A stretch of DNA of 64,000 nucleotides, from the NCBI GenBank assembly GCA_037178675.1, contig JAYMGJ010000193.1, positions 1 through 64,000 on the forward strand. Direction: 5' to 3'. The number at the start of each line of letters is the position of its first letter. Positions within the stretch are counted from its first letter, which is position 1. Made by a program: the position numbers and the translations under genes. The notes beneath the pieces are model-generated. The model worked only from the letters and a program-made list of their open reading frames with translations, made no database searches and was not told the DNA's origin. The stretch comes from Scleroderma bovista (lineage: Eukaryota; Basidiomycota; Agaricomycetes; Boletales; Sclerodermataceae). Shown piece by piece: positions 15,840 through 52,654 of the stretch.

Positions 15840-16860
15840 ATCACAAGTAGCGGATTCGACGTGTCCAGGGAAGTGAGATGAATGATAGAGGGAGATGGAT
15901 GTGACAGGACTCTGGGATGAAAGGACCATATGCAGAGGACTCAGGAGACACAGAAATGACCAGGTATGAATTTTCAAGTCTAATGATAGACTTGAGACGA
16001 CCAAAGTATGTGCGCGACACAGGACTGACGAGGAGAACGCACTGACCGAGAACGAGAGGGACTGAGGGAGAAGGCTGGGAAGATATGTACCAGACAGTAC
16101 ACAGGAGCTCAGGGAGAGGCTGTCCCAAGAGCAGGACATAGTTGAGGTCTGCTGCAATAGCGGAGAAACGTTCCAGAGAAAATGTGGACTCCATAGTGAG
16201 TGATGAAGTGGGTGTCTGGATTGCGGGTGGAATATCTCCGTGGGAAATGAACGGATTTACGTCGGAACTTGACAGGCAGATAGACCACAGTCTAGGCTCC
16301 ATGATGGTATAGTCACATGATTGATAGCTTCAAAAATGGCGGAGCTATTCAAAATATTGGAATGCCGGCACTGGGCGCCTAAATTTGACATTTGGGCGCT
16401 AAAAATGATTCTTCCTTTTCTCCTTTGTTTCTCTATCATTTCTTCTGCTTCTTTGGTTGTTCTGGTATGGGAGTTGGACTGCAGTAGGTTGCATTCCTCT
16501 CTCATACTGAAATGATCATCAATCCTTGGATTCTTCTGCTTCTTGGCGGTTCTCGTGCGATAGATGACTGTCCATGTTGGCATTCATCTCTCGCATCAGG
16601 ATAGTCATTCTTGTGCGATAGATGGCTACAACGAGCTTGTATTCATTCTTCGCATAAGGATAGTCTTGACTTTGCGTGATATGGATAGCGAGGGCTGTCT
16701 GTATCCCTCAAGTTGGGACAATCTTTCAACAGATCTTGGGTGTGCGTTCTTCGCATTAGTTTCATCGGCTAACTTTCTCCATGTCCACAGTACCAAACAC
16801 GTTTGGTGTGTGACATCGGACGCACAACTGGGCGCCACGTCTTTTGCCTTGACGACTTCG
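15840..16860 (-). repeat. Right copy of the large inverted duplication
   Basis: Reverse complement of 9795-10745. It includes the MESTFSLERF frame and the same run of ATCTATCGCA/ATCCTTATGCGA motifs. It extends a little further than the left copy, through a segment encoding VTHQTCLVLWTW (about 16790). That segment matches nucleotides coding CHTPNRFGTV in the left copy in another frame, so the outer edge has diverged or is not coding. Confidence 0.8.
15841..16194 (-). CDS. Small conserved protein (MES-FSL family), right copy
   Basis: The partner of 10354-10746. It starts MESTFSLERFSAIAADL and stops after RRIRYL, giving 117 residues. The frame stays open upstream to 16302 without a clear reason to prefer an earlier start; the MES start is chosen because it is shared by both copies. 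Function is unknown. Confidence 0.5.
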   Translation of the reverse strand: MESTFSLERFSAIAADLNYVLLLGQPLPELLCTVWYISSQPSPSVPLVLGQCVLLVSPVSRTYFGRLKSIIRLENSYLVISVSPESSAYGPFIPESCHIHLPLSFISLPWTRRIRYL

Positions 16861-26492: not shown

Positions 26493-26761
26493 TGTAAGCC
26501 TGGCGTCTTACTAACGGCTTACTAATATGACGTCCGTGCGCGCTAGGTCCGTGCGCAGTGCTCTATTTCCTTTTCTGTCCTGTAGTCAGCGCCCTCATAT
26601 ATACCCGAGGTCCCCTCAGGCGGGACATCTCTTTCTTTCCCTCTCTCTCTCACTCTCGCTCTCACTACTGTTATCCTTTGTAATATCGTGAATCCCACGC
26701 GCTTGTCCACGTTCTCCCAAGCTACTATCATAAGTGTTACTCCCCTCGTGGTGAGTTTCCA
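26493..26761 (+). repeat. 5' LTR of the chromodomain gypsy element
   Basis: 269 bases, TGTAAGCCTGG...GAGTTTCCA, with a TATATA box near 26599 and a CT-rich block after it (26630-26665). The matching 3' LTR is split by a transposon. Confidence 0.92.
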
Positions 26762-27068
26762 CTTTTTTTTGAACGACGCACCGAGCGCGAGTCGACGCCC
26801 TATGCAAGGCGTCAAACTGTCACACCATCGCCGCCCCACCATCCCCTACCCCTTGATTACTCGAAGTCGGGGAACGGCAGTTGCGCCATCATCACCGTTA
26901 CCGCCGTTATCTCCGTCATCATCACCTCCTCTCTTACCGTCGTCATCATCACCTCCTCTCTTACCGTCGTCATCGCCACCTCCTCCTTCGTCGTTGTCTC
27001 CTGTCCCTTCCTCGTCTGACAGTTCAGACTATTCCTCTGTGAATCGTTGTCTCCAATTTCCCGCTACT

Positions 27069-30000
27069 ATGTTTGCAAAGCCAGGTCGCTGTGAACAGGC
27101 GGCACCAAATAAGGCGCCTCTTCTTACTGCTGGTGAAATCACTCCTGAGGCCCTCCGTGCCTGGGAGATGGGTTGTCTCCAGTTTTTCCGGCAGAAGGAG
27201 ATTGCAGCGAAGGACCAGGTTGGTAGGGTCGCCTGGAATCTCCAAGACCCCCGAGTACAGGACTGGTATGTCAACGACAGTGAATGCCTCAACGCGTTGA
27301 CCTTCGCCGCCTTCATGCTGGAAGTCCGCTCCTATTGGCTGCCCTCCGACTGGGCTACCATGGTTCGACAGAAGTTGTTGTCGTCTACCCAAGGCGATAA
27401 GGCCTTCCATGTATGGGCTGCTGAGGTACAGAGTCAGAATGTTCTCCTCCGTGGAAATGCCTCTCATCTCTCTGACGACAATCTCCGTTATCACCTCGAG
27501 AGTCACATGAACGTCGATCTCATTGCTGACTATCGTTCCGCTAACGTTGAAGCGGAGCAGGATCTTCGCAAGTGGATCGAGAAGGTTCGCCACCTCAATG
27601 AAAAACGTCTTCGTGATGTGGCCAGACAAAAAGAGGCTGTTGAAGCGGCACTTCGTGCTAACCGCCAACCACTTCAGACAAGTCGCTCGATGAATACGAA
27701 ATCCAAGGAGTCCAAGACGACCAGTGATAAGACCACCCTTACTCATCTTCCACGGCTCACCCCGGAGGAACGGAAGTTGTTGAATGATAATGAGGGTTGT
27801 TACAAGTGCCGCCGGTTTTTCCAGACTCACACTACGCCTACGTGCCTGAATGACTTTCCGGACGCTAAAGGGTATGCTACACTCACGGCTACCGATGTGG
27901 AGGCTGCCCACACCAAAAAGCGTACTAAGCCGATTGCGGCCGTCGTTGAGGATGAGCCAGTGGCCAAGAGAGTTTGTGCCGTGGACGAGGTTGCTGAGCC
28001 TATCGCCATTGTGATGCCATCAGCCGCCTTGGGCAGCGGCACGGATACTGGTGATGAGTGCGTAGCCCCCTTATCTGTTCCTCATTTCTATTGGTCGTGC
28101 TTGATCGATGGGCCTAACCTTGCCTCGTCTCTTCCTGTGGAAGCCTTGATTGACAATGGCTCACATTTAGTTCTGATTGACGCCGCCCTTGTCAAGAAGC
28201 TCAGCCTTCGTCTTTATACCCTGCCCAAACCACTTGACGTCTCGGTCGCCATGTCACCCAACGAGCGTGACACCTTTTCGTTGTCTCAGTATGTCCGACT
28301 GTCTTGCCTCTCATTGGACTGCCAGTTCCGTTCACGTTCAGTTCGCGCCATTGTAACACCACGTCTTTGCACGCCGCTTTTGTTGGGGGTTCCCTTCTTG
28401 TCGATCAACCGCATTGTGATCGATCATGAGTTACGCACTTGTACAAATAAGGACTCTGGTTATGACTTGTTGAATCCTTCATCGGATAGAAACGTAGTGA
28501 ATGAATTAAACTGTCGCCTGCCGATGTCTGAGGACTATGTAGCTGCGATCCAATGTCGTATTGAACAGCTTGCTTGCAGCGAAGACTTACATAGGTGGGA
28601 CACTTCCATGAAGGCAGAATTTGCGGACCGTTTTCCGGTAGACATTCCACCTATTGAACACCTACCTGATGATGTTCTTTTCCGTGTACAACCCAAAGAT
28701 GCGACTAAGATTATCCAACGTCGCTCATACGATTGTCCGAAGAAATATCGTGAGGCCTGGAAGACACTGTTACAACAGCACATTGATGCTGGCCGTTTAC
28801 GCCCTTCCAACAGCCCCCATTCTTCTCCAGCCTTTATCATTCCAAAGGCTGATCCGACTGCCTTGCCCCGCTGCGTGAATGACTTTCGCGAACTCAATCT
28901 CAACACAGTACCAGACAATCATCCCTTGCCGAAGATTGAGGAAATCCTGCGTGATTGTGCAAAGGGCAAGTTCTTTGCTAAGATAGACATGACCAATGCC
29001 TTCTTTCAGACGAAGGTACATCCTGACGATGTTAAATGGCTGGCCGTTCATACTCCTTGGGGACTTTATGAATGGCTTGTTATGCCTATGGGGGTGCGTA
29101 ATGCACCTGCCGTTCACCAGCGCCGCATGGCTTGCGCATTGAGACAGTTCATTGGTCGGATTTGCCACGTGTACCTTGACGATATAGTTATTTGGTCGCA
29201 GACCCTAGACGAACACATACGGAACGTCCGTACCATCCTAGAGGCTCTTCGTGCTGCCAAACTCTTCTGCTCTCTGAAGAAGACGCAGCTTTTTTGTACC
29301 GAAGTCTTGTTTTTGGGTCACAAAGTCTCCGCTCAAGGTATTGAAGCTGATCCGGACAAGATTTCACGCATTTTGGATTGGCCTGTACCTCGCTCCACAA
29401 ATGAGATGCGTTCCTTCCTTGGTTTGGTTCGCTACATTGCCGACCACATTCCTAATCTTGCAGAATACACCCGCATTTTGAACGCCTTGACCACCAAGGC
29501 TGCTAATCTCAAGTTTCCGAGTTGGTCGCCAGTACACCAAGACGCTTTTCAAGCCATCAAAGACCTCGTCGTCAGTCCCCAGTGTCTGACGACGATTGAC
29601 CATGATAATCCGGGTGACAATCAAATTTTCCTAACTTGCGATGCCTCGGACTATAGGACTGGTGCTGTCCTTTCCTGGGGTCCATCTTGGGAAGAAGCGC
29701 GCCCTGTCGCCTTCGATTCCACTCCCCTCCGTGACACCACTCTCAATTATCCTGTTCATGAGAAAGAACTGCTTGCGATTATTCGCGGATTACAGAAGTG
29801 GCGGATAGAACTGTTGGGAACTCCAGTCCACGTTTACACCGACCATCATACACTGGAAAATTTTGCAACACAATGCGACTTGTCACGTCGTCAAGCCCGC
29901 TGGCAGGAATATATGGCACAGTTTGACCTTACCATCCATTACATTAAGGGAGAACGCAACGTAGTAGCGGATGCGTTATCACGTCGAGGCGATCCTGTGG

Positions 30001-31496
30001 ACGGTGTAGTTGGTGCAGTATCCAATACTTCTCTTGATCGTTCACTGGTACTCGACATTCTGACAGGCTATATGGAAGATCCTTTCTGCCGCAAACTTTT
30101 TGAGTCGTTGGACTCCATTCCACGATTACAGGAGAAGGATGGTTTGTTATACCTAGCAGACCGCTTGGTTATACCGCGCGTACGTTCCTTACGAGAAAAG
30201 TTTTTCCATACAGCTCATGATGCGGCTGGCCATTTCGGAGCCGATAAAACATATGTGGCACTTCGTAAATCGTTTTATTGGCCAAACATGCGTCGTGACC
30301 TTGTGGAAGCGTACATCCCCGCTTGTGTAGCTTGCATGCGCAACAAGTCCGCTACGACAGCTCCGGCTGGGCCACTGCACCCTTTACCAGTTCCAGATGG
30401 TAGGGGAGAATCTATAGCAGTAGATTTTATTGGGCCCCTGCCTGAAGACCAGGGGTACAACATGCTTGTGACCATCACTGACCGTCTAGGTGCAGACATC
30501 CGTTTGATCCCTTGCTGTAACACGATTACTGCCCCTCAGTTCGCTGCCCTGTTTTTCGATCACTGGTACTGTGAAAACGGTCTCCCTCGTGAGATCGTCT
30601 CTGATCGTGATAAGCTGTTTCTATCACGCTTTTGGAAGACACTGCATGCCTTAACAGGTGTTAAGTTGAAGATGTCATCGGCATATCATCCTCAAACCGA
30701 CGGTGCAAGCGAACGGACGAACAAGACTGTTAACCAGTGCATCCGGTTTCATGTGGAACGTAATCAGAAAGGTTGGGTAAAAGCCTTACCCCGGGTGCGT
30801 TTCCACATCATGAACTCTGTAAATGCTAGCACGGGTTTCTCTCCCTTTCAGCTTCATTTGGGCCGTTCACCTCGCGTGTTACCCCCCTTATCGGAGACAC
30901 GGGTTGCCGACCTTGATTCCTTCGATGCTGCGTCATTCCTCTCACGACTCGAACTTGATGTACTAGAAGCACAAGACAATCTGCTTGCCGCCAAGGCACA
31001 ACAAGCCCAGGCTGCTAACCGCCATCGTCTCGCTGATCCTCATTTTGCTGTTGGTGATAAGGTTATGTTGTCTACTAAACATCGGCGACATGAATACATA
31101 ACGAGTGGGTCAGGCCGCATAGCTAAGTTCATGCCTCGTTATGATGGTCCTTATACGGTTTTATCCGCTGCACCAGAGACTTCTACTTATGTTTTAGACA
31201 TCCCGGGTTCTTCACATACATGCAACTCATTTCACGCGAGCCATTTACGCGCTTATGTGGTGAATGATCAGGAACTATTCCCATCACGGGAACTTCCTCG
31301 TCCGGGCCCTGTCGTGACTGCAGACGGACAACTGGAGAATTTCATTGAGAGGATTTTAGATGAGAAGAAGGTCGGACGCTCAAAGAGATATCTTGTGCGG
31401 TGGGTTGGTTATGGCCCGGAGGACGACGAGTGGCTGTCTCGGAAAGCCCTCGACAAATGCGAAGCCTTGGATAGATGGGAACAAGAACATGCATAG
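27069..31496 (+). CDS. gag-pol: Gag-Pol polyprotein of a chromodomain Ty3/gypsy retrotransposon
   Basis: The frame is open from within the LTR (26688); ATG 27069 (MFAKPGRCEQAAP) is the more natural start after the LTR. Domains in order: Gag with a degenerate zinc knuckle (CYKCRRFFQTHTTPTC, about 27798), aspartic protease (LIDNGSHLVLID, about 28145), reverse transcriptase (VNDFRELN; catalytic YLDD at about 29172), RNase H (LTCDASDYRTGAVLS, about 29632), integrase with an HHCC finger (HDAAGHFGADKTYVALRK to CVACM, about 30220-30340) and D, D, E at VDFIGPL, SDRDKLF and DGASERTN. A C-terminal chromodomain (YLVRWVGYGPEDDEWL, about 31390) probably guides insertion to heterochromatin. The frame is uninterrupted, so the copy may be active. 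Confidence 0.95.
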   Translation: MFAKPGRCEQAAPNKAPLLTAGEITPEALRAWEMGCLQFFRQKEIAAKDQVGRVAWNLQDPRVQDWYVNDSECLNALTFAAFMLEVRSYWLPSDWATMVRQKLLSSTQGDKAFHVWAAEVQSQNVLLRGNASHLSDDNLRYHLESHMNVDLIADYRSANVEAEQDLRKWIEKVRHLNEKRLRDVARQKEAVEAALRANRQPLQTSRSMNTKSKESKTTSDKTTLTHLPRLTPEERKLLNDNEGCYKCRRFFQTHTTPTCLNDFPDAKGYATLTATDVEAAHTKKRTKPIAAVVEDEPVAKRVCAVDEVAEPIAIVMPSAALGSGTDTGDECVAPLSVPHFYWSCLIDGPNLASSLPVEALIDNGSHLVLIDAALVKKLSLRLYTLPKPLDVSVAMSPNERDTFSLSQYVRLSCLSLDCQFRSRSVRAIVTPRLCTPLLLGVPFLSINRIVIDHELRTCTNKDSGYDLLNPSSDRNVVNELNCRLPMSEDYVAAIQCRIEQLACSEDLHRWDTSMKAEFADRFPVDIPPIEHLPDDVLFRVQPKDATKIIQRRSYDCPKKYREAWKTLLQQHIDAGRLRPSNSPHSSPAFIIPKADPTALPRCVNDFRELNLNTVPDNHPLPKIEEILRDCAKGKFFAKIDMTNAFFQTKVHPDDVKWLAVHTPWGLYEWLVMPMGVRNAPAVHQRRMACALRQFIGRICHVYLDDIVIWSQTLDEHIRNVRTILEALRAAKLFCSLKKTQLFCTEVLFLGHKVSAQGIEADPDKISRILDWPVPRSTNEMRSFLGLVRYIADHIPNLAEYTRILNALTTKAANLKFPSWSPVHQDAFQAIKDLVVSPQCLTTIDHDNPGDNQIFLTCDASDYRTGAVLSWGPSWEEARPVAFDSTPLRDTTLNYPVHEKELLAIIRGLQKWRIELLGTPVHVYTDHHTLENFATQCDLSRRQARWQEYMAQFDLTIHYIKGERNVVADALSRRGDPVDGVVGAVSNTSLDRSLVLDILTGYMEDPFCRKLFESLDSIPRLQEKDGLLYLADRLVIPRVRSLREKFFHTAHDAAGHFGADKTYVALRKSFYWPNMRRDLVEAYIPACVACMRNKSATTAPAGPLHPLPVPDGRGESIAVDFIGPLPEDQGYNMLVTITDRLGADIRLIPCCNTITAPQFAALFFDHWYCENGLPREIVSDRDKLFLSRFWKTLHALTGVKLKMSSAYHPQTDGASERTNKTVNQCIRFHVERNQKGWVKALPRVRFHIMNSVNASTGFSPFQLHLGRSPRVLPPLSETRVADLDSFDAASFLSRLELDVLEAQDNLLAAKAQQAQAANRHRLADPHFAVGDKVMLSTKHRRHEYITSGSGRIAKFMPRYDGPYTVLSAAPETSTYVLDIPGSSHTCNSFHASHLRAYVVNDQELFPSRELPRPGPVVTADGQLENFIERILDEKKVGRSKRYLVRWVGYGPEDDEWLSRKALDKCEALDRWEQEHA

Positions 31497-31666
31497 CACG
31501 GTAATCTTTATTTTGACGATGGATATATGCTAACACCTTTTGATAAGGACTGAGGGATAACATTGTGGAGGTTAGATTGGGGTGGAAGAGTAGATGAAGA
31601 CACAAGAATAATCGTCAAGAAGCAACACCAAAGATGGGTTGGCCTTTTTTTCATAGGGTGGAGGGG

Positions 31667-31784
31667 TGTAAGCCTGGCGTCTTACTAACGGCTTACTAAT
31701 ATGACGTCCGTGCGCGCTAGGTCCGTGCGCAGTGCTCTATTTCCTTTTCTGTCCTGTAGTCAGCGCCCTCATATATACCCGAGG
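31667..31784 (+). repeat. 3' LTR of the gypsy element, first part
   Basis: Identical to the start of the 5' LTR up to TATACCCGAGG, where the kinase-carrying transposon begins. The rest of the LTR resumes at 36659/36664. Confidence 0.92.
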
Positions 31785-32250
31785 TACGGTGGGCGAGAAG
31801 GATCAGGTTGCCATTTCAAGGTTTGCGGTTCCACGGTTTGTTTACAATCATGTAGCCGAGGCTCCACCCCACAAATTGGGGGTTATGTTATTTGCTCCGT
31901 TGGCTACCGGTTACGAAATCCATCAACGCACACCGCACAGACCGCCGACCGCATCATTTGTTTACAGTCCTTTTCCTGAGATGCAGTAGCAGTTACTATA
32001 ATATAAGCCCCCTTTATTTCTTTCAGTGTAATACACCAGTGACCTGTTGAAGGCCATTCTCCAACTCTGGTGCTAGCCTATCTGTGGTTTATAACAAAGC
32101 TAAACCAAATGGGGTATTTTGAGCACTTTTGCTCCGCTACTACGTTCCCCCAAAGTTCCTCTCACTCCTTCTATTCACGTTCAAATCAGCTGGGCTGTCC
32201 ACTCATTATACTAAGCTCAGTTTCACTGCTAACTGCTGTCACTCATTTAT

Positions 32251-34640
32251 ATGACACGTTGTGCTAGCTGCTCAAAATCATTCCCAAAACTTGATGTGGA
32301 TGAGTGTGCAAAGTGCCTGAAATGGCTGCTCAGTCCAAATGACGAGTCCATTAAAGTTGGTTGTTTGCTGGATACATCGAACACCATGGTAATAGTACTG
32401 ACTATTCATCTAAACAATAGGACATTCCACAGTGTGAAGTATGTGGGTGTGTCTTTCGGTTTTTGACAGGAAAGGTTTGTGCAAGTTGTGAGGAAGGTAC
32501 GAGGACATGAATGAGACGAGTGTGCATGTGCTGACACAAATACTCCAGCAGTGCGCCCAACTGAATTGTCTGATGGGACACTTCCCTTGCGAGGAGCTTC
32601 CATTTTGGAACGCATGGAAGCGCACTCTTCACGGGCATCGGAGCACCGGCTTAATCAGCGGCCCAAAAATGCTGGACTACAGAAGGCCTCACAGGTCAAC
32701 GAAGCAACAGCAGCTTTAAAGCGTCAGAACCGTGTTGAAACACTTAATATTTTTCTTAGTATCTTCTTGTGTCCACCTGATAAGTCTAAGGCAGCAAAGA
32801 AGGTACAGGCTCAAAATAAGCTGTCAACTTGGTTCAAATGCTGATGCTTGGACTGTACAGTATCATATTCCACTCATACCCATCAATGTTGATATACGAG
32901 AAAATGCAGAAAAGGTGCTGATGCAAATTCTCATGAAGGCATCCAGTGTTTACGAGGAGTCGTGCATGGGAAGCAATGCAATCATGCCATCATTTGACCG
33001 GTGGGTAGATAACTCTGCTGTCTATCCTTGTTAATGACGAGAATACTGTTTACTAGAATAAATGCAATTTTTGCTGTTACACAGTCCGCAACAGAATGCT
33101 TCCACCTGGAACAAAGCTATACATCAAGTGTCACTGTGGGACAAATGTACAATCGTATTAAGTCAATGGGTCAGCTGTCGGAAAAGGACAAAAAGCGGAA
33201 TGCTCTTTCACTTCGTCTCTTGCTGAATGAGCCAGTATGTCATGAAAATTTTAACATTGCCAGTGATATATTGAAGCATCCTATGGCTACTAGACTGATC
33301 ATGATGAAGATGGTCCTGATGACGAGTTCATCATGAAGTCTGCTAGGAAATCCCACGCACGTACCTCCAAAGTTCCAGCAAGTACTCGACGACTGAAACG
33401 AAGGCTTGAATCAGCTGGCCCATGCCCAGGTATGTAACCCTATCTGTTTCATTAAGCAGTCAAACCTAGCTGATTTCGCATACTTGTAGACACTGCTGGT
33501 AGTCCTGCAAAACGTTATAAAAGTGCTTACCGACCACGAATTTCATCAGCTCGGATTGAATATGAAGCATTTGAGTTCGTGCGGCAGGACTGTATGGTTG
33601 ATGGCGATGGTAACATTAGTCTCGTCAAACACAATGAGATGGAGACAATTCTTGTGGCAAAACACTGGCAAAAATATATCTCAGGAGGTATCCAACATGG
33701 AGGTTACATCTCCAAAGGTCTGAGCAAATTTGCATTCAAGGTAGCTTCGTTATATCATTGTTGTATCATGCCATTGAAGACTGACATTGATGGCACAATA
33801 GGGTTCATTTCGTCAGGCAGACTATGCCATTTTTCAGTGCAAACCAATTTCTTCGTGCGAGTCATCAAATGCAGAGGATCTTGTTCAGGAGCTTCATCTT
33901 CTTCACCTTGCGGATTACTTCCTTGCATCCTTCTATCAGCGTGCAAAAGTACACTGCGTGAACTTGCCTCGTAAGCATCTTTGTCAACAATAATTCGACT
34001 GAACTTATTTGCCTCTTAGGCATTGCATGGAATGTCAAAGGTGCCTTCGTTGGTACAGTTACTGCTCAAATTCCACCAAAGCCAATGGACAATGCTGACG
34101 ATCGAACTCTGTTGTTCAAGACATTCCTTGCAGCACCACTTTTATCATGTGATGGATTATATGTCGAGAGAAAATTCTGTGGTAATACTGATATTCCACA
34201 GAATGAAGATCGTTTGGGTCTCGTAATTGATGCATACATACACCATGCTCTACTTGATAGTGGTAAAACAGTCCTACTGTCTGATTTGCAAGGTATGACA
34301 ATGTCTTGATAGTGCACTTATGTACGACTAATGTTTCACAGGTGTTATTGCTCCAGATGCATCCGTTACCTTGTTTGATCCTCAGGCACATACGTATGTA
34401 GCAATACTCGAACTTTTTCAGTATAACTAACATTTTGTCAGCCATGACCAAATGTCGGGCCACTGGGATGAAGGTGAAAAACAAATATGCACGTACCTCA
34501 AAGCACACCAATGCAACAATATCTGTCATATGCTCAAGCTTCACCTAGACACTGATTCCGAAGAGGATGACAGTGCTGGTGGAGATGGCACTATTTCAGG
34601 GCGTGCTCATAACCATCCTTTGCGTGTTGGTTTTAACTGA
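32251..34640 (+). CDS. Alpha-type protein kinase with N-terminal zinc ribbons (transposon cargo)
   Basis: A multi-exon gene; short introns are apparent, for example GT 34293 to AG about 34341. The N-terminus has two cysteine modules (CASCSKSFPKLDVDECAKC and, about 32420-32495, CEVCGC...CASC). A Lys/Arg-rich linker follows (about 33330-33430), then the kinase core: ISKGLSKFAFK (about 33710-33740), GAFVGTVTAQIP, LYVERKFC (about 34160), VLLSDLQG (about 34271), VTLFDPQAHT, GHWDEGEKQI and HQCNNICHMLKL (about 34507). The last blocks match the alpha-kinase (eEF2K/MHCK) signature of DxQG, DPQ, the Gly-rich loop and zinc ligands of the HxCNxxC type. It would phosphorylate Ser/Thr of unknown targets. 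Exon borders between 33000 and 33250 are unsure and may hide damage. Confidence 0.8.
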
Positions 34641-34728
34641 AACACCCTCTTTTGAATCAAACTACATATCATTTGAGATAATGGACTCCATAGTATCACA
34701 TTGACAATGGACAATTCTACTCGTAAAG

Positions 34729-36224
34729 CTAAAGTAATGGTAGCATCTTCGTAAACACAAGCCAAACGTTATCTGATGTGATCCTGTCAATGCCCAAGGT
34801 ATTAAAGGCAGCCTCTGCAGAATGCGCAAACTCTACATCAACGAACCGAACTAGATCTTCACCTCCAATGTCATCCTTAAGGCGACGAATTACAGCAAGA
34901 TCAACAGGTAACAAACAGTTTTCCCCCCCATATTCGTCCGCCAAAGCAATGGCAATGTTGGGCGAAACTCCAGAAGGTAGCTTCTTAGTTGGATCGAAGC
35001 GGGTCGGATGGTTGTTCAACCGTTCCCTAAGATGATCAAGTTCACGCTGAATGAACGTTGGCCACAGCCATTGCACGAGTTCACTTCAACAGCTTATATT
35101 AGCATGTGCTAGTTATGACGAATTGGCACCTACTAATGCTTTGGATCCATCGGATTATAAATGCCCTCACCTGCCTCCCACCAGATCTTCGCATTCATGC
35201 CCCATTGCAGGCGCAAACGAAGCCACCCACGTTCAATAGTTATATTCCTGATGCTGCGAAGGAAACGATGAGGTGGGAGAGTATCACTTGCATACTCGGG
35301 TGCAAACTCTTCACTATGATTTGTCAGTCAATTTATTGTGTAAAATGCTAACACATACCGTAAAGCATTTGCAAGACCAAAGACTTGAGTAGTCTCACTG
35401 CCACAGTCAGTTGTCATCTGAAGAGGCATCCCACCTACACTTTCGATTGTACTGAGATAAAGGTATGCAATGGCTGTCTTCAACCGGTTGTTCGGAACAG
35501 CCCACAGACCAAGCCATTTCCCAGACCACTTGTCACGAACTCCCCAAATCGGAAACCCAATGCTGGAAAGTTTGTCATGACCATCTGCAGACCACTCATG
35601 ATGAGGGCCAAGGGCAACAAGTGGCTCACGAACAACCTTCTTAGCAGTTGGGTCACGTAGCTCAAATCCACCAGGATCCTGTCGGCGCATCTCAACAGTA
35701 ATGTAGTCACGGCTCAAATGGACACCTGTGTCAAAGGCAATGCCCTCTTTGATCAAATCAGGACCTTGACGTCGTGCAGGATCTTTAGCCATCTGATCTA
35801 GGACCAACTGGCGCTTGACAGTCTCAGGCAATACACACGATGTTGTGCGGCTACCATGAAGCTGGAGCTTTGATCGACGTCGCGTGACAGTGGCCTCACT
35901 GTGCTAGGTCAGCTATCAGCCACTTGCAGTGGAATACACACACCTCATCTTGATACCGTGCTCGACCCATAAGAGCTTGGCGATTGTCTTCTTGTTCGTG
36001 ATGTTTTTGCGGTGGTAATCTCGAAGCATCTCTGTCACATGCTCGTCGTCTGCAGGAGCTGTTGAAGTAAATCAAGCTGCGGAACCTTGAAAGGCTGTGA
36101 AGTACTCACGACAATGCATGTGTTGGTTTCTTCCTGTGGGATTTGGGATGAAACGGGTGATCGCACCATCACCTGGAGGTGCCACCAAGTCAACTGGGTC
36201 AGCGAGTTCCTCACTGTCAGACAT
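34729..36224 (-). CDS. Integrase-like DDE transposase of the kinase-carrying transposon
   Basis: The likely start is at 36224 (MSDSEELADPVDLVAPPGD). Exons then read through an HTH-like region (ITNKKTIAKLLWVEHGIKMS, about 35950) into the main exon (about 35370-35900). The catalytic core shows D in EWSADGHDKL, D in MTTDCGSETTQVFG and E in NITIERGWLRLR (about 35250), the pattern of an rve/retroviral-integrase fold. The C-terminal exon (34729-35076) reads PTFIQRELDHLRERLNNHPT and ends shortly after DNVWLVF. It would bind the 172-bp TIRs and join the element to a staggered 5-bp cut. The triad and overall length of about 450 residues look complete. Confidence 0.75.
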
Positions 36225-36663
36225 GAGAGGAAAAGTGACACGTCCTCAAGAAAGGTACCCTGCCCCCACAAAACTTTTAAATATTCAGTCCGTCTTTCAC
36301 GTACGAAAGCAAACACATCAATTACCTGTAAGTATGGCGTGCACCCCACATGGCAAAACCGATCGTTCGACTCATTCAACCAGGACCCTTGATAAAAAGA
36401 TGATAGCTGACGCGGAATGTCAGCCTGTAGTTCGCCATAATTAATGCTTGCCAAGTTGCAAGGATTGTAAACAAACGATATGGCGTTGATGCGGTCGGCG
36501 GTCTGTGCGGTGTGCGTTGATGGATTTCGTAACCGGTAGCCAACGGAGCAAATAACATAACCCCCAATTTGTGGGGTGGAGCCTCGGCTACATGATTGTA
36601 AACAAACCGTGGAACCGCAAACCTTGAAATGGCAACCTGATCCTTCTCGCCCACCGTACGAGG

Positions 36664-36814
36664 TCCCCTCAGGCGGGACATCTCTTTCTTTCCCTCTCTC
36701 TCTCACTCTCGCTCTCACTACTGTTATCCTTTGTAATATCGTGAATCCCACGCGCTTGTCCACGTTCTCCCGAGCTACTATCATAAGTGTTACTCCCCTC
36801 GTGGTGAGTTTCCA
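36664..36814 (+). repeat. 3' LTR of the gypsy element, second part
   Basis: Continues the 5' LTR sequence from TCCCCTCAGGCGGG to GAGTTTCCA after the transposon. It is followed at once by the TCACC target duplication. Confidence 0.92.
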
Positions 36815-38497: not shown

Positions 38498-40181
38498 ATG
38501 TCTGACAACAGCTTCAACGCGGGACAGAGCCAATTCGGTTTTCCAGATGATGGTCATTATGGTACTTACATTTATCCTCACACTGACCACGACTAACCGA
38601 TGTCAGCACCATATGGTCTCGATATCGACACTGACCAGTTTGTCGATACTTTCAATGCTGATTTCTACGATCCATCGCCATGGGATTATATACCTCAGGC
38701 CGACTTCATTCCCATGGACGCAACGCCAACGCCTGCCCCATCAATGGGGGCCCCTGTTATTAGCTCGACTTCTCTAGCGATGCCAGCTCCAGGCACACTT
38801 TCACATACAACGAACCACGTCACCGGGGGGCATTATTTTCAGCCAGAAGCAACGACGGCCCCATCAACGAGCACTCCTACCGCCAGCTCGGTTTCTCTGG
38901 CGATGCCGGCTCTAGATGCAACTGCGCATACAACGGGTCACATCGCTAGCTCGATTCCCCTGCCGATGTCCGCTCCGGGCACGACAGCGCATACAGTGAA
39001 CGACATCGCCGGAGGACATCATTTTCAGCCGGAAGCAACGAATCAGGTGCAGACTATTGTATTACCGATGCCAGAGCCGGACGGCGCGGATCATCCACTG
39101 CATTTTTGCGCGTGTCGTGAGTTCTTTTTTCCCGCTCTTGTGTCGTCACGAGTTGAACTACTGTAAACTTAGCCGCACATATCGACCTGCAGGAGCAACA
39201 TTCAGAAGGTTGGGCTACGGTTCTCGGAGGCGCGTCAGAAATCCTGTGTAGCTTGCTCCAAGAAACGCTACCGCATACTATTCCACCCAAGGCCGTAGAG
39301 GCTGCACTTGCAAAAGGTATTTACGCCCATGTCAAGCAATGTCCGGGCTATATGTGGATTCCAGAGGACAGTAAGTAAACATATTTCTGCCGAATTAATT
39401 ATCTCACTTCTGATACTCAGTGTGGTTGGAGAATGGCACCCCAACCTCCAGCGGCGTTAATACGAATTTCACAAAAATAGTCCGACAGCAACTTAAAGAA
39501 GTCGCAGACCGATTCACGCATCATATGTGGCCACTCGCGATATTCGCCGTAAAAAACCAAAACGGCTTGCATGGATTACCCCGAAATACCAACGGTATCT
39601 TAGGACCTGGGCCGATCAATGCGAATTTATTGGAGTGGTGGTGCACATGGTCCGATGACTACGGTTACGGTATTTTTCACTCAGCGTATTTGGATCAAAC
39701 GACGAATGCATACCATTTGGTGCGTCGTGGAATAAATTTTAAATCTTGATTTTAGTGAATTTTGTTTTTAGGGCGTCCCATTCGGTCACAACGCATTCGC
39801 ACGGACATTTTGGGTGGCGACGTACGGAGTTGGTCACACAGGATGGTTCGGTTTGACGAGAAAATGCAACTCGTCGCCCCAGCCTCTTTCCGAGGTGTCA
39901 CTGCACATGGGGGCCACCATATGCAGCTGGGTAAGTCTGCCTCTACCTAATTATTATAAAATATCTAATCAGCAATACTTTCTGAGCTTATCGTCGCGGC
40001 TTCAAACTTCCAACAGCAAACTCGGGCCGTTTGGTGTTCCAACGATATGCGGAAGGATATCAAGAACACCACTGAGAAGCTGTATATGTTCTTTGTTAAA
40101 ATCATGGTCGGCTTGCCAGGGAAAACCACTGCCGTGCAAGCCCAGTGGCGTGCGGGGCTCGTGAAATTTTTACAGGCATAG
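38498..40181 (+). CDS. Multi-exon gene of unknown function (repeat-bearing N-terminus, conserved C-terminus)
   Basis: The start is ATG 38498 in a GCCACC context. Exon 1 (38498-38561, MSDNSFNAGQSQFGFPDDG) joins exon 2 at 38607 (intron GT 38562, AG 38606). Exon 2 encodes a Pro/Ser/Thr-rich region with repeats: GGHYFQPEAT and GGHHFQPEAT, and several SLAMPAPG-like segments. Later exons encode LQEQHSEGWATVLGG (about 39190), GYMWIPED, FTHHMWPLAIFAVKNQNG and FHSAYLDQTTN (39420-39720), then PFGHNAFARTFWVATYG (about 39778), QLVAPASFRGVTAHGGHH (about 39870-39930), and a C-terminal helix-rich exon (39974-40181, ending AGLVKFLQA). The two halves of the fourth exon lie in different frames, so there is a frameshift or a missed intron near 39845. 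I do not recognise the family. Confidence 0.55.
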
Positions 40182-41139
40182 TAGTATTGCATTGCCAATC
40201 CGCCTTTTTAACAATTCGCATCCGATCGTTGCTTGTACTAGTACGATAGTATCTTGTGTTTCAAAATGATGTCCGTAGTTCTAACGCTTTCTTGTTGACA
40301 CGCTACTTCAGTTGTACATAAGTTGGCAAAAATAATTCATGATTCATGCTCTCTCGAGGTTTCGGACTTCGTCCACAGGCTGGTGATGCAGGCATTAAAG
40401 TTCATGCATCTGACACGTGTTAAACGACATCTTTTCGCCTCCTCTTCTAGGTTCTTCCAGCACCGCTTCGATGTCTTGGCAGCACTCGTTCATCGTCTCA
40501 GCCCATCGGACAACGCCTAGTCGTCTGTGTTCCTGTCCAGCTCGTCTAGTAGAAATGTTCGATCCCCAGTCTCGTTTTATCATCGCACGCCCAGATGGCG
40601 GTGCCAGCGACCCCGTCAGGCCATCTGCGCGTACACCATCTTTCGCTTCGACAGGGAGGAATACCAGAATGTCATCTACTGGTGCATCTACAGCGGTCTC
40701 GGCGTACGGTATCTTCCGTGACCTCGTTGTGGGGTAAGTTATGAACTTCAGGTATCGAAACACGTCAGGCGGTACGGTCTTGAAAAGTGGCTGACCCTGA
40801 AACTTGCATTTTAGTGGAACGACTATCTTCCTCTAACTTAGAGTCTGGCTTTGGGAGACTAAGTTCACATGAAGGTTTCTAATTAGGGACTCCATGTTTG
40901 CTGTTACCATTTGGACATGCATCGCTCGAGTCCTTCGTGGATATGTGCTATCGTGGTACGTGTTCGCCTCTCCCTTTGTTACCTTGGCTTCGCTGCCGTG
41001 TGGTATGTACTGCGACGATGAGTAAGTTAGCTACGCTCAAACTTGGTCACCCGAATCTTTTTTAACTGAACAATCACCAGGCTAAGGTAACTGAATTTTA
41101 GGAAAAGACTAAAGGACAACGAGCGATGGGTATCTGAAG
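40182..41139. other. No gene supported
   Basis: Several frames of 60-120 codons overlap on both strands at 40320-40760, but none shows a domain, splice signals or repeats. I treat the stretch as intergenic or as decayed sequence. Confidence 0.35.
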
Positions 41140-46345: not shown

Positions 46346-47005
46346 AGTAAACAAAAAAGTCAACAGTAAGCTATATAAATGCTGGGAAAGCAAGTAACAA
46401 AGAGCGCAGAATAACAATCGGTGATGGTGTGTAGAGATGCAGAGTAAATGAGTGGGCAGTAGCGATTAGTGACGGCGGGTATAATGCTTGCAGAAAAGAC
46501 AGAGCGACGATTGTAGCATACTGGAGCGAGCGAGTGAGCGTGGAACACGATGAGAATGAGAGAAATCTGTTGTAAATGCATCAGTTTTAGTGCCATTACT
46601 ATTCGCAGGGACCCCACCACAGAACGACGGTCAGCAGGTGATAACAACAAGACACGGAGGGTATAATATTTGCAAAAAAAAAATCCTGGAAACAAAGCGT
46701 GTAAACTGGACGAACGACCGAAAACGAGCAACTTACAGAGGAAGTATCGAGGATTGACGGCCTCCACGGGATCATCTGTGACCGCACTGCTACTTGCTGC
46801 AACCTTGAGCTTATGGGCACATTGGGCAATCTTGACCGTATCACGAAGCCAAGCAGAACCTCGTTTGACGATCGAATCCCTGTATGCCAACGAGTCAACG
46901 CCCCAGTTTGGCCATGAAAAGTTGAAGGACGTGGAGGTGTTCTTCCCGGTTGCTTTATTGAGTACTTTAGGGAGCTTGAATCTGATCTTGCCATCCCCAG
47001 CTTCC

Positions 47006-47293
47006 TGTTGAAGCAATACCTATATACGTAGAGGAACTGCTACTCCAACTCACCTGTTGGGTGGAGTGCACAACCTGAAATGGTAGCGGTAGCTGGTCAA
47101 GAGCTGTTATATTATATAAGCGATTGACGCTGTTTATATACAACAAATAGTGTGACGCGTGACTGTGACACGTGACGTGTGATATGTAACATCTACTCTA
47201 AAGAGGACTATTACTAAGTCTACACTAATATGGCTCGCAGTCTTGTGCACACTTCGTCGACGGTTTATGCCGGGTGCACGTGCAACTTCAACA
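47006..47293 (-). repeat. 3' LTR of the copia element
   Basis: 288-base LTR, downstream of the coding frame when read on the minus strand. It is about 97-98% identical by eye to the copy at 52655-52942. Confidence 0.93.
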
Positions 47294-47339
47294 CTCCCCC
47301 TCGCTGTGCTGCACGTAGAGCACTTCAGTGAATAAGGCG

Positions 47340-50300
47340 CTAGATGCTGCCAGAGGGAAACTGTAAGCCTAGTTGAGCTCTGAACTTCGTGAATTTCTTG
47401 CGGGGCAAGTTCTTGGTGAGCAGATCAGCGGGATTTTCAGCACCATCAATGAAGAATAACTCCACATTACCTTTTGCGACTGACTTGCAGATTCCGTGGT
47501 AGCGGATGTCGATGTGCTTGGAGCGAGGCTCCGTTACAGGGTTGGATGCCATGAATATGGACCCCTGATTATCACCACAAATCGGGATAGCTTTCAGCTT
47601 ATAGCCGAGCTCACCGAGTAAACTCCGAATCCAGGTGACTTGGCGAGCACAATCGCTCAAAGCCATGTATTCAGCCTCAGTGGACGAGTACGCAATAGTC
47701 TTCTGCGCACGAGAAGTCCAACTGATCAAGGCATCTGCAAGTTTCAGGTAAAAACCTGTCTGCGAGAGGCGAGAGATAGGGTCTGATCCCCAATCTGAGT
47801 CTGTGCATGCAATCAGGCCAGCACCGGATCCACCATTGTACACTAGGGAGTAGTTAGGTGTACCAATCAAATAGCGACAGATATAAAGCACTTTGGACAG
47901 GTGGTCCTGGGATGGGTTCGCGGCATGGCACGAGAGATGGGTGACTGCAAAGGCAATGTCGGGCCTAGTGCCTAACATAAGGTACAGGAGGGACCCAATA
48001 ATCGTCTGGAAACGGGAGCGGAGTTCCGCATCAACAGGCTCTGTATTTTTGGCGGCATAGTAGCCAGCCGGCAGTGGGGTGCTTGCAGACTTTGCATTGA
48101 GCATACCGCAGCGTTCAATGACCTTTTGTAGGTACGCGCATTGATCCAGGTGGATAGCGCGACCTTTGCGAGTGATTCGCATGCGGAGGAACTCCTTAGG
48201 TTCTCCAAGGTCTCTGCACTCCCATTTGTGCATGAACTGCGCCTTAATGGCATCAACAACAGCCTTGTTAGGGCCGCAGAATAAAGTGTCGTCAACGTAG
48301 ATAATACCAATGACGATGTTGGTGCCTTTCTTCTTGTAGAAGAAGATGCCTGCTTCAGACTTAAGGTGCTCAAACCCGAGCTCTTTGAGAGACTCATCGA
48401 GTGTGCGCCACCAAGCTAGGCCGGCCTGTTTGAGGCCATAGAGGGCACGCCAGAGGTGGAGCACTTTGCACTCTTGCCCGGGAACTGCAAACCCTTCGGG
48501 TTGTTCCATGTAGATCTCTTCGTCGAGCTTGCCATACAAGTAGGCGCTCCGAACGTCGAGTCCAGTGATATACCAATTCTCAAGTGCGGCAAGCGCAAGC
48601 ATGAGGCGCACTGTTTCAAAGCGCACGACTGGTGAGAAGACCTGGTCAAAATCTAATCCCTCAACCTGGGAGAAGCCTTTCGCTACTAAGCGGGCTTTCT
48701 TGTGGCCATCCGACTTCACGTCGAAGACCCATCGATTCTTAATGACCTTCCGGTCTCGGGGACGGTCAACTAGCTCAAAGACTTTGCGCTTTCGCAGCAC
48801 GTCGAGCTCTTCTTGGCAAGCAAGTCGCCAGAGTTTCTGCTCAGCTTGGGGTAAGTGAGCAATGTCCTTGTAGGACCAGTTGCGGACACTCTCGTATTGA
48901 GGGTCGCGGGTTTCGAGGGCTTTGCCCATCAGATAACGGACTAGGTTTGCTCCCCCTTCCTCGCACATCTTTTGCACATCTTCCTCACTGGGTGTTGCAG
49001 AGGTGTCGGGGAAACCACCAGGAACATGGTCTGGTGTGTCCGGTTGTGGGGGTCTAGGGACCTCACCCACAGTTTCTCGCCATCGAGAGGCACTTTCGAT
49101 ATCCCGGAGTTGCTCAACAGGGTGTCGCCGCTCACCATACACGTTACCGGGGCACAATGGCGCTCTACGTTCACGTTGGGGGCGGGCAGGTATATTAACT
49201 GCAGGGGGTCGCGGCGCATTCTGGCAGCGTTCAGCTCGGCCAGGGCGCTGCGGTGCCAGAGGTGGCGGATTTCTCGCCGGTGAAGGCGTTCTCGGTGCCG
49301 GTGGAGGCACTGGAGATGGTGCACGGGGAGGATTTATTTGGTTAGGCTCTTCCTCAGGAGCCTCAGGTTCCTCGCGCTTTGGATCGTCATCCTGTGCTTG
49401 GGGATGTGGGTAGCCATGGTCGTGTTCCACATCGTCATCACTGTCGATATCATCAGGGGGATTCCCTGGTCGATCAGTGGCTGGTTTCAGATTTGCCCTT
49501 CCAAAAGGGTTCTCGAGAGGTTCGCGCCTGTTTTTGGGGCAGCGAGGGAAATGACGCTCGTCAAAGACGGTGTGAGCAGCGGTGAACACTGCATTGGTGG
49601 AGCGCATAAACAAAAAATTGCGCTCATTGCCAGGGGCAACACTGACATAGGTCATAAGCTCTGACTTGGGAGCCATCTTATTCGCTCTAGCTGAGGCTGG
49701 GAGGTAGACAAAAGCTCCACAGCCAAATACACGTAGGTGGTCGATGTTAGGCATCTCCCCCTTAAGCATTTCATGGGGGGTGCGCCATCGCAGGCGAGCT
49801 ACCGGAGTACGGTTGTAAATGTGGGTTGTGTGAGCGAACGCAAATTCCCACCAGGAGTCAGGAATGCAGGCTTGATGCCGCATAGACTCAGCTTTATCCA
49901 TGAGAGTGCGCCCTAAACGCTCGGCGCGGCCATTCTGCATGGGGGTTCTTGGAGCACTTTGATATATTTTTATTCCTTTTTCAAGGAGTGCTCGATCAAA
50001 TAGATCGGATTTATACTCTCCGCCGGCATCGGACATCCACCCAACGATGTGCGTATCATGTTGGACTCGCACCATTTCGAGGAAATCTTTGGCAGCTGTA
50101 ATCGCTGCAGCTTTGGAGCGAAGAGGCATAGTCCAGGCGTGAGAGGTATAGTCGTCGTAGAAGGTGATAACATATTTAAACTTCTGGTACGACGTAACTG
50201 GGAAGGATTTCAGGTCAGAGTGCACCAGCTCAAAGGGCTTGGAAGCACATCTTTCATTTTCTGGGAAAGCTCGATTGGGCATCTTGCCAAGAGCACATCC

Positions 50301-52319
50301 AGGGCAAACACAATCCTCAGTTGGAAAGTGAATCTCCGGGAAGCGCTGCATATGTTTTTGCGCACGTCGGAGTACTTCCTTCGAGGGGTGCCCAAATCTC
50401 CGGTGCATAATGTCATAATCGACTTTGCTCACGGAGGCGATGTAGTTAGATCTAATTATTGGGATAGATCTAATCCCGAAAATGACGTTGCAATCGTCTT
50501 CTGGGTCTGGCCCAAACCATAGGTGTTCAGCTTTATGAATGAGGCTAATGCCTCGCTTATCGCCAGTGACCTTGTAATTACGCTGGAGCATTTCGCCCAT
50601 AGAAATAAGGCGTGCAGTAGTGCCTGGCATATGGAGCACTTGGGTGAGTGTAATGACTTTCTCATCCCCAGAGTTGTGGTCTAGGCACCGGAGTAATACC
50701 GTGCCAATGCCAGCAATTAGTGCTACACCATTTGCGGTTTTGGCGTAGTGCGCTCGCTTTAGCGCGTTGTAGGAGGCGAAATTGCCTATGTCACCAGTGA
50801 AATGGTGTGATGCGCCAGAGTCTAGTAGCCAGAAGGCACCAGAGAGTTCACTATCATCAACCATTTTTCCCTTACAGCCAGCACAGCGTGCATCATTCAG
50901 ACACGAACAGATATATGCATTGCTCGAGGGGACACGACATGACATATTGTAGTTACTGCTTGCTATATACAGTGACGGCGTGAAGCGCACATGTAAAGGG
51001 AGCGTGTCAGTGTCGGTCAGCACGCGTGCAGAAGGTACTTGCCTGAAGAGGCTGGCCCCCGCACCCATCGCCATCGACGTCGTGTTGTAGCGGTTGAGGA
51101 CCATCGCGTCGATTTCGTCGAACTCGTCGTCGGCGAAGGGCTCGTGGGCGAATGGTTCATCATCCCCAAGGGAGATGGCATCCTCCTCATACATTGTGAT
51201 GCGCTCCTCAAGACGAGGGCGCTTCAGCGAGGAGGGACCGGCCTCGGGCTGGTCCAGGTTCGCACTCGCCATCGACACAACTTGGTCGAGGGTGCGGATA
51301 GTCTGGCAGGAGGGTTCTACCCCCAAGCGGTGTGCCAAGTCAAAGGCCTTAATAGTATTATCGAAAGCGGGGGGGCCGTAGTGGGCAGCACCGGGGGTGT
51401 GAGCCAGGGCACGAGGGTCGACGGTGGGCTCTGGTCCATCGTAGTGGACGTAAGTAGTGAAGGTGGCTTGTTGGGCGTTTTCGCGGTGAGCACGAGCCTT
51501 CTTGCCGCCACGTCGAGTGCGGCCTCCCTGTCCTTGGGCAGGAGCGTTTCTGCTCGCACCGCCGTTGGACCCGCCTTGCTGCTGCTGCTGCCTCTGGGGC
51601 TGCTGCTGCTGCTGGGCGAACTTGGGGTCAGCTGGCTTGCGCTTCACAGCGCTAAGCTTGTTGGCCTGGGGGCCCTTACCACCGGCGCGCGAAGAGGCGC
51701 CTTTCTGCTCGAATGAGAGCGTGGCAGCCTTGACAATCCCGTCGGGCTTCAGATTCTTGATCTCGTCCGGCGACGTCTGGCTAAGAATTTGAGCTACAAC
51801 CTCCATGGTGGGAGGGAGCTTGCACAGAATGATCATTGCCTGCACAGGGGCAGGGAACTCGAAGCCAGCGTCCTTCAGATAAGCGAAGTGACTGAGCACC
51901 TTGGTGATAGCCGGAGCGGGATGGGAGCCAGCGGGAATGGTAGTCGCCAGGAGCTTGCTAAGCTCGGCGTAGGCAGAGCCGATACTGGGGGCGCTGAAGT
52001 TCTTCTTGAGGTGGTCCCAGACGTCCTTGACGTTGTTGAGATTCGAGACCGCAACCTGGATAGAGGGGGCGAGGCGCAAGGTGATATTGCCAAGCGCTCT
52101 CTCGGTGTTGTCGTCCCACTCTTTTCGGTCGTCGTGACCGGCAGCGGGTTGCGTCGTCGAATAAATGTACCATTGGCCTTGTGCCCGAAGGTAGGCCTGC
52201 ATAGAGGTGTGCCACTGCTGCCAGTTGGAGCCAGTGAACACGGGGACCATCTTGTCGAGAGCACTGGACATGGTGATGTTCTGTTGGGAGTCAACGGAGT
52301 CAGCAAGTGAATGCGACAA
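47340..52319 (-). CDS. gag-pol: Gag-Pol polyprotein of a Ty1/copia retrotransposon
   Basis: A single intact frame of 1659 residues. Domains in order: Gag of the UBN2 type (VFTGSNWQQWHTSMQAYL; VKDVWDHLKKNF), a Gln-rich linker, protease (LLDSGASHHFTG, about 50820), GAG-pre-integrase finger (MHRRFGHPSKEV to CPGCALGKMP), integrase with D, D, E in VHSDLKS, MSDAGGEY and NGRAERLG (about 49930), then reverse transcriptase (RLVAKGFSQVEGLDFDQVFS; catalytic YVDD at about 48289-48300) and RNase H (CTDSDWGSDP, SSTEAEYMAL, about 47680-47800). The domain order, with integrase before reverse transcriptase, defines copia. It may be active. Confidence 0.96.
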   Translation of the reverse strand: MSHSLADSVDSQQNITMSSALDKMVPVFTGSNWQQWHTSMQAYLRAQGQWYIYSTTQPAAGHDDRKEWDDNTERALGNITLRLAPSIQVAVSNLNNVKDVWDHLKKNFSAPSIGSAYAELSKLLATTIPAGSHPAPAITKVLSHFAYLKDAGFEFPAPVQAMIILCKLPPTMEVVAQILSQTSPDEIKNLKPDGIVKAATLSFEQKGASSRAGGKGPQANKLSAVKRKPADPKFAQQQQQPQRQQQQQGGSNGGASRNAPAQGQGGRTRRGGKKARAHRENAQQATFTTYVHYDGPEPTVDPRALAHTPGAAHYGPPAFDNTIKAFDLAHRLGVEPSCQTIRTLDQVVSMASANLDQPEAGPSSLKRPRLEERITMYEEDAISLGDDEPFAHEPFADDEFDEIDAMVLNRYNTTSMAMGAGASLFRQVPSARVLTDTDTLPLHVRFTPSLYIASSNYNMSCRVPSSNAYICSCLNDARCAGCKGKMVDDSELSGAFWLLDSGASHHFTGDIGNFASYNALKRAHYAKTANGVALIAGIGTVLLRCLDHNSGDEKVITLTQVLHMPGTTARLISMGEMLQRNYKVTGDKRGISLIHKAEHLWFGPDPEDDCNVIFGIRSIPIIRSNYIASVSKVDYDIMHRRFGHPSKEVLRRAQKHMQRFPEIHFPTEDCVCPGCALGKMPNRAFPENERCASKPFELVHSDLKSFPVTSYQKFKYVITFYDDYTSHAWTMPLRSKAAAITAAKDFLEMVRVQHDTHIVGWMSDAGGEYKSDLFDRALLEKGIKIYQSAPRTPMQNGRAERLGRTLMDKAESMRHQACIPDSWWEFAFAHTTHIYNRTPVARLRWRTPHEMLKGEMPNIDHLRVFGCGAFVYLPASARANKMAPKSELMTYVSVAPGNERNFLFMRSTNAVFTAAHTVFDERHFPRCPKNRREPLENPFGRANLKPATDRPGNPPDDIDSDDDVEHDHGYPHPQAQDDDPKREEPEAPEEEPNQINPPRAPSPVPPPAPRTPSPARNPPPLAPQRPGRAERCQNAPRPPAVNIPARPQRERRAPLCPGNVYGERRHPVEQLRDIESASRWRETVGEVPRPPQPDTPDHVPGGFPDTSATPSEEDVQKMCEEGGANLVRYLMGKALETRDPQYESVRNWSYKDIAHLPQAEQKLWRLACQEELDVLRKRKVFELVDRPRDRKVIKNRWVFDVKSDGHKKARLVAKGFSQVEGLDFDQVFSPVVRFETVRLMLALAALENWYITGLDVRSAYLYGKLDEEIYMEQPEGFAVPGQECKVLHLWRALYGLKQAGLAWWRTLDESLKELGFEHLKSEAGIFFYKKKGTNIVIGIIYVDDTLFCGPNKAVVDAIKAQFMHKWECRDLGEPKEFLRMRITRKGRAIHLDQCAYLQKVIERCGMLNAKSASTPLPAGYYAAKNTEPVDAELRSRFQTIIGSLLYLMLGTRPDIAFAVTHLSCHAANPSQDHLSKVLYICRYLIGTPNYSLVYNGGSGAGLIACTDSDWGSDPISRLSQTGFYLKLADALISWTSRAQKTIAYSSTEAEYMALSDCARQVTWIRSLLGELGYKLKAIPICGDNQGSIFMASNPVTEPRSKHIDIRYHGICKSVAKGNVELFFIDGAENPADLLTKNLPRKKFTKFRAQLGLQFPSGSI

Positions 52320-52654
52320 TGGACAAGCAAGAAAAGAAGAAACACCTGAGTGCTAGTGAAAGCACTTCTGTCAGCAGCTAACTCAAGACTAGGTCATGCC
52401 AGCGCAAGTCGTCGTCGATGTTCGCCATGGTTGGCGCAAGTCATCGATGAACTTCGCCTGTGGCAGTACAGGTGCTCAACTAGGGGCTCACTGTCTGGCG
52501 CAAGTCGTCGACCGACTTTGCCTTGTGGCTGTGCAGGGGCTCAGCTAGGAGCTCACTGTGGTCCACAGCGTCAAGCTAGTTAAAGCGACGCTCAGGGAGC
52601 TGGAGCGCTGCCTGGTGCATTGCTGCACACAGTGCACTCACAGGGCTCATAACC

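Follow-up and report, generated by a model that had tools for sequence, protein, structure and literature searches.

Does an alpha-kinase gene inside a DNA transposon serve the transposon, or was it merely picked up from the host? This question is raised by a 4,874-bp element at positions 31785..36658 of a 64,000-nucleotide stretch of the fungus Scleroderma bovista (contig JAYMGJ010000193.1, positions 1-64,000; hereafter the window), which belongs to assembly GCA_037178675.1 (51.8 Mb, 850 contigs). The element contains an alpha-kinase gene beside an integrase-type transposase gene. The best joint explanation, to which we assign a probability of about 0.72, is that this cut-and-paste transposon of IS3EU-like type entered its site recently and appears to be intact, and that in a wider group of related elements the alpha-kinase is a regular second gene which element-level selection has preserved along with the transposase. 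At the level of sequence, this explanation is built on the insertion itself, the intact reading frames in the window, the repeated pairing of the two genes, their matched divergence and a comparable constraint between distant copies.

The element is bounded by terminal inverted repeats (TIRs) of 172 bp which are identical to each other, the left one (31785..31956, + strand) starting with TACGG and the right one (36487..36658, - strand) terminating with CCGTA. As raw inverted arms (31784-31956 and 36487-36659), these ends extend over 173 nt with 100% complementarity, which gives 172 bp when they are read as repeats starting with TACGG. A target site duplication (TSD) of the sequence CGAGG flanks the element on the left (31780..31784) and on the right (36659..36663). 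The insertion lies in the right long terminal repeat (LTR) of a Ty3/gypsy retrotransposon (26493..36814, + strand; own TSD TCACC) that has a long open reading frame at 26586-31496 and LTRs of 269 bp, the left one intact (26493-26761) and the right one split into 31667-31784 and 36664-36814. After removal of one CGAGG, the rejoined right LTR was identical to the left LTR at 268 of 269 positions. Because the undisturbed left LTR represents the empty site, the insertion and its 5-bp duplication are demonstrated, and because the LTR pair differs at one base, the transposon insertion is younger than that LTR pair. The analysis confirmed the identical 172-bp TIRs and, against the empty LTR, the exact CGAGG duplication around a unit of about 4.87 kb that a model had described earlier from the letters of the window (the sequence-only reading). 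The TIR search suggested there was carried out on the assembly and gave two matches, both being ends of the window element; the search skips very common words, and its result suggests a single copy. An Rfam search of the window found nothing.

The alpha-kinase gene (32251..34640, + strand) was modelled with 11 exons encoding 610 aa without an in-frame stop. Exons 1 and 2 (32251..32496, + strand) encode an N-terminal zinc-ribbon-like region with four CxxC motifs at residues 4, 19, 40 and 55, in agreement with the zinc ribbons noted earlier. All 10 introns of this gene, as well as all 4 introns of the transposase gene, are of the GT..AG type; both models were built from such introns and open frames, and the splicing is thus predicted from the sequence. 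Residues 400-573 matched the Pfam domain Alpha_kinase (PF02816; E 3.3e-15) with 57.1 bits against a curated cut-off of 21.3, and the kinase stretch of a distant relative on contig C770 (see below) scored 48.6 bits. Alignment to solved alpha-kinases revealed that both kinases retain the motifs DxQG, DPQ and HxCNxxC, which we take to be catalytic and zinc-binding residues of alpha-kinases; the nucleotide-binding lysine of the window kinase has no confident assignment. The window kinase shares the PF02816 domain and these motifs with eEF2K, MHCK A, ALPK1 and the PDB entry 4kuj (the latter itself having DPA), but differs from them in its weak similarity (best E-value among PDB alpha-kinase matches 1.1e-4), in its own N-terminal zinc-ribbon region and in being encoded inside a transposon.

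The transposase gene (34729..36224, - strand) is convergent to the kinase gene and was modelled with 5 exons encoding 434 aa, again without an in-frame stop. Its product matched the Pfam rva_4 integrase core (E 4.4e-7), and a putative catalytic triad (D182, D241 and E284) was assigned from the alignment; its first spacing, 58, recurs unchanged in the transposase of the distant C770 element, and its second spacing measures 42 in the window transposase and 40 in that of C770. No CxxC motif occurs throughout the window transposase, i.e. there is no HHCC domain upstream of the core. The two genes recognized by the sequence-only reading, a DDE integrase-type transposase and a multi-exon alpha-kinase, are thus both represented by uninterrupted models with Pfam matches. 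A window-type transposase, 38% identical over the best 104 residues, was found at C403:272-2167, followed by a zinc-ribbon-like fragment resembling the N-terminus of the window kinase; the remainder of the kinase was not seen after this fragment. Scans of viral contigs revealed no relative of the window transposase or of the window kinase.

The assignment to IS3EU is based on the termini, the TIRs, the Pfam rva_4 match and the comparison within the same genome. Ginger2 elements have TG..CA termini, and the window element differs from Ginger2/TDD in its TA..TA termini. It is like Ginger2/TDD in its integrase-type transposase, and the TSD of the latter is 4 or 5 bp (PMC10045372). As described in the available parts of the two papers, IS3EU elements have TA..TA termini and a TSD of usually 6 bp (2023 IS481EU paper, PMC10045372), or 6-bp TSDs and TAYGG..CCRTA ends (Kojima 2025, PMC12730594). 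The window termini TACGG..CCGTA fit the latter pattern, and the TIRs of more than 30 bp (172 bp) and the integrase-type DDE transposase without CxxC are likewise IS3EU-like. However, its TSD, established against the empty LTR, is 5 bp instead of the usual 6 bp, and for this reason the element is named IS3EU-like and not a plain member. In the same available text, all TET-bearing IS3EU families, which occur in rusts and in the truffle Tuber indicum, contain a TET/JBP gene between the oppositely oriented transposase and alpha-kinase genes (PMC12730594). The two genes of the window element are also oppositely oriented, but they are the only genes in 4.87 kb, they are convergent, a TET/JBP gene is absent, and the kinase bears zinc ribbons. 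KDZ elements that carry TET/JBP, Kyakuja among them, likewise have a gene for a chromatin-acting enzyme beside a fungal transposase (Kojima 2025, PMC12730594), whereas both the transposase family and the enzyme are different in the window element. The link between alpha-kinases and IS3EU is already published in passing, for TET-bearing IS3EU, in the available text of Kojima 2025 (PMC12730594); new are the compact, TET-free, convergent variant with a zinc-ribbon kinase, the survey of pairing and the evidence on selection. Among the open-access papers naming both alpha-kinase and transposase, only Kojima 2025 concerns fungal transposons by its title, and among the open-access PubMed Central papers listed, no title or abstract opening draws the copy-number consequence discussed below or tests selection.

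Searches of the assembly with the Pfam families came first and placed alpha-kinase and rva_4 matches repeatedly on shared contigs. The modelled C770 transposase and a C770 kinase-domain stretch of 319 residues were then used as queries. We grouped 84 transposase matches into 18 C770-type loci and 29 kinase matches into 15 C770-type loci, both match counts being lower bounds; the fragments C288:1-211, C495:28289 and C495:35216 as well as the window and C403 matches stand outside the 18 transposase loci. Together with the window kinase and the loci C403:47141, C695 and C144, the assembly contains at least 19 alpha-kinase loci, and 12 of these 19, the window included, lie less than 10 kb from an IS3EU-type transposase. 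On all 11 contigs that hold both C770-type genes, the genes are arranged head to head, with 2.4-6.8 kb from the transposase to the kinase-domain match. For the 15 C770-type loci, a mean of 0.10 pairs and a maximum of 3 were obtained by chance in 20,000 random draws, in which the assembly was treated as a single 51.8-Mb line with no contig breaks. As a control, rva_4 matches with E below 1e-10 were regarded as strong (150 of 340 candidates scored). By our count among the matches listed, at least 20 contigs contain a strong rva_4 match, and an alpha-kinase match accompanies it on only one of them, C267, at a distance of about 7.3 kb, where both may belong together. With 1 of 20 strong contigs among the matches listed, no general link between rva_4 integrases and alpha-kinases was seen, and the pairing is thus not general to integrase-like genes. 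A search for inverted repeats around strong rva_4 matches (19 loci, 2.8-3.6 kb each) was negative, these stretches being perhaps too short. At least 151 Tet_JBP matches occur genome-wide, a very large set for 51.8 Mb, and among those listed no TET/JBP gene lies within any of the 12 pairs. Separately, at C673:35264-40537 a Tet_JBP match (35264-35650, + strand) was observed 3.8 kb from a kinase-less C770-type transposase (39418-40537, - strand); this locus could be a TET-bearing relative or a chance neighbourhood.

Four of the C770-type pairs are bounded by TIRs and TSDs and contain both genes: C770:53854-61834 (7,981 bp, TSD GACGAG), C385:73448-83276 (9,829 bp, TSD CACAAG/CACAAC, 5 of 6 positions), C492:27009-36007 (8,999 bp, TSD TGAACC) and C177:6999-18579 (11,581 bp, TSD CTGAAG). 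The starting sequence common to all four is TATGGAAAGCC. Their ends (TATGG..CCATA) and their 6-bp TSDs, exact in C770, C492 and C177 and with one mismatch in C385, agree with the termini and TSDs given for IS3EU in the available text of Kojima 2025 (PMC12730594), and their genes are divergent. The C770 transposase gave a full model of 499 aa without a stop, the only complete transposase model among the four. Pairs of TIRs at both ends were also sought in C30, C575, C495, C422, C73 and C288 and were not found; C30, C422, C73 and C288 have one exact end only. The proposal of the sequence-only reading that kinases travel as regular content of such transposons was thus borne out in this genome by 12 paired loci of 19 and by five bounded elements, four of them found beyond the window with the kinase between TIRs. 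A plain one-off capture, which that reading had named as its possible refutation, was rejected because five bounded elements contain both genes, and the other outcome it had named, a kinase frame broken in all copies, is contradicted by the intact window kinase.

In order to compare the histories of the two genes, distances and trees were calculated after masking columns of low local identity and reading stops as X. Over 11 pairs (C545, which has no transposase, stands outside them), kinase and transposase distances were strongly correlated (Mantel r 0.845, a value that no permutation out of 10,000 attained). The groups C770/C73/C288, C177/C492, C385/C249 and C30/C422 are common to both small trees, which disagree on the placement of C495 and C575. 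In three distant comparisons, in which dS is saturated, the kinase had a ratio of nonsynonymous to synonymous substitution rates (dN/dS) of 0.088-0.103 and the transposase one of 0.063-0.088; for C770-C495 dS was not computable, and this comparison is outside these ranges. Less saturated kinase comparisons gave 0.18 (C575-C545, 203 codons) and 0.27 (C30-C422, 99 codons). The similar dN/dS values of distant copies indicate that, over the longer history, constraint on the kinase was roughly equal to that on the transposase. Judged from these sequence comparisons, the kinase appears to be a functional component retained by the element rather than a chance passenger.

Several observations weigh against this explanation. 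The survey covers one genome, and in it four of the 15 C770-type kinase loci (C267, C19, C545 and C483) have no detected C770-type transposase, the kinase match of C19 beginning 640 bases from a contig end, while seven of the 18 C770-type transposase loci (C770:20.4k, C459, C673, C201, C270, C132 and C560) have no detected kinase. Transposase exon readings contain stops in C73, C249, C385, C288, C177, C492 and C495, and kinase exon readings in C73, C288 and C177; the exon readings partly run into introns, and not all stops in C385, C492 and C177 lie outside introns. The kinase matches of C249 and C288 are split, and the kinase stretches available for the Mantel test were short in C422 (about 101 residues) and C249 (about 75 residues). 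Recent pairs showed dN/dS of 0.25-0.69 for the kinase and 0.44-1.29 for the transposase, the value of 1.29 (C177-C492) being maybe inflated by misread exon ends; these values fit mostly decay after insertion. Finally, no second copy of the window family was found, and the selection figures come from other loci and not from the window kinase.

Decay is also visible among the closest relatives of C770. Long stretches of C73, C288 and a second C770 copy share about 94-97% identity with C770. Both C288 and this second copy are interrupted; in the 2.9 kb compared, the match of the second copy ends at C770 position 57579, before the kinase domain is reached. The observed/expected ratio of CpG is 0.84 in C770, 0.58 in C73 and 0.35 in C288, a loss which fits methylation and decay of old copies. 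By eye, many changes of Arg to Cys, His or Gln were seen among C770, C73 and C288.

The kinase may nevertheless be host cargo of unrelated elements, captured recently, once or repeatedly, and without any role in them. The window element and the C770 type indeed differ in gene orientation (convergent versus divergent), their N-terminal kinase parts apparently differ as well, no paired CxxC having been noticed upstream of the C770 kinase domain, and the genome also has repeated copies of another alpha-kinase fragment, which adjoins tubulin-like frames. Recent capture is however difficult to reconcile with eleven pairs of one divergent layout and correlated divergence, with dN/dS near 0.09 in distant copies, and with the presence of alpha-kinases beside IS3EU transposases in the TET-bearing families described in the available text of Kojima 2025 (PMC12730594), and we regard it as improbable. 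Less credible still is a kinase selected for host signalling beside which transposase fragments landed. The four C770-type kinase loci without a detected C770-type transposase could be domesticated or decayed and would suit it, but five elements hold the kinase between TIRs with a TSD, and random placement yields a mean of only 0.10 pairs; a host gene is unlikely in the five bounded cases.

If the kinase is kept by the element, as we prefer, it may act in the nucleus as a helper in trans. Its substrate would be either the transposase or a host protein of chromatin, silencing or repair, and the phosphorylation would let the element be expressed or move; the zinc ribbons could direct the kinase to nucleic acid or to a partner protein. 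One possibility, which we hold only tentatively, is that the kinase specifically targets a heterochromatin or DNA-methylation factor of the host and, by phosphorylating it, relieves the silencing of the element, in parallel to the TET/JBP genes of other fungal transposons. The decreasing CpG ratios of C770, C73 and C288 are as expected of methylated, decaying copies, and TET-bearing IS3EU have TET/JBP between the transposase and the alpha-kinase (available text of PMC12730594), but none of the listed Tet_JBP matches falls within the 12 pairs. No more and no less doubtful is phosphorylation of the element's own transposase, which would gate excision or target joining, for example by cell-cycle stage. 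The head-to-head arrangement of C770-type genes at 2.4-6.8 kb could provide shared control, and the divergence of one gene parallels that of the other; a kinase with a host target would, however, likewise diverge with its element. Between these substrates, we slightly prefer a silencing or chromatin factor of the host to the transposase, because CpG is depleted in two of three close copies of a related family and because in the IS3EU of rusts a TET/JBP gene, which encodes a demethylation-type enzyme, is inserted between transposase and alpha-kinase (available text of PMC12730594).

The tubulin-adjacent alpha-kinase fragment is distinct from these genes. It was observed beside frames that appear beta-tubulin-like by eye at C403:47145-48817, C695:3260-4932, C144:68415-69147, two places in C216, and C178; the copies are 88-99% identical over parts of 1,673 bp, and a seventh match, C253 (74% over about 84 bp), was left out of this set. 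Other repeats were seen in the window. Positions 47004-52947 resemble, by eye, a Copia-like retrotransposon with 295-bp direct repeats (97% identical) and a frame of 1,670 aa (47340-52352, - strand). Inverted arms of 462 bp at 2725-3186 and 6072-6533, 100% complementary and 2.9 kb apart, possibly belong to another TIR element, and long imperfect inverted arms (82-93%) at 9940-10702 and 15846-16606, about 5 kb apart, lie around frames on the - strand that appear gag-like by eye.

The strong expansion of alpha-kinases in Agaricomycetes assumed by the sequence-only reading finds no support in the published counts available. In the published table, as far as it is available, seven Agaricomycetes have a mean of 5 alpha-kinases and three Microbotryomycetes have none, whereas the family is highly expanded in rusts, with 79 and 39 genes in two species (PMC4469406); PF02816 was also among the enriched families in the available part of a wheat-rust comparison (PMC5295586). 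We propose, at somewhat less than even odds, that the alpha-kinase is an ancestral second core gene in one fungal IS3EU lineage, as necessary as the transposase, and that the burst of kinases in rusts and some other basidiomycetes largely reflects element copy number and not host signalling. This predicts that rust alpha-kinase genes are mostly IS3EU copies. If true, the rust expansion would be a copy-number effect of transposons, to be removed from comparisons of host kinomes and pathogenicity. A cut-and-paste transposon that retains a protein kinase would also offer a new handle on the dealings between element and host.

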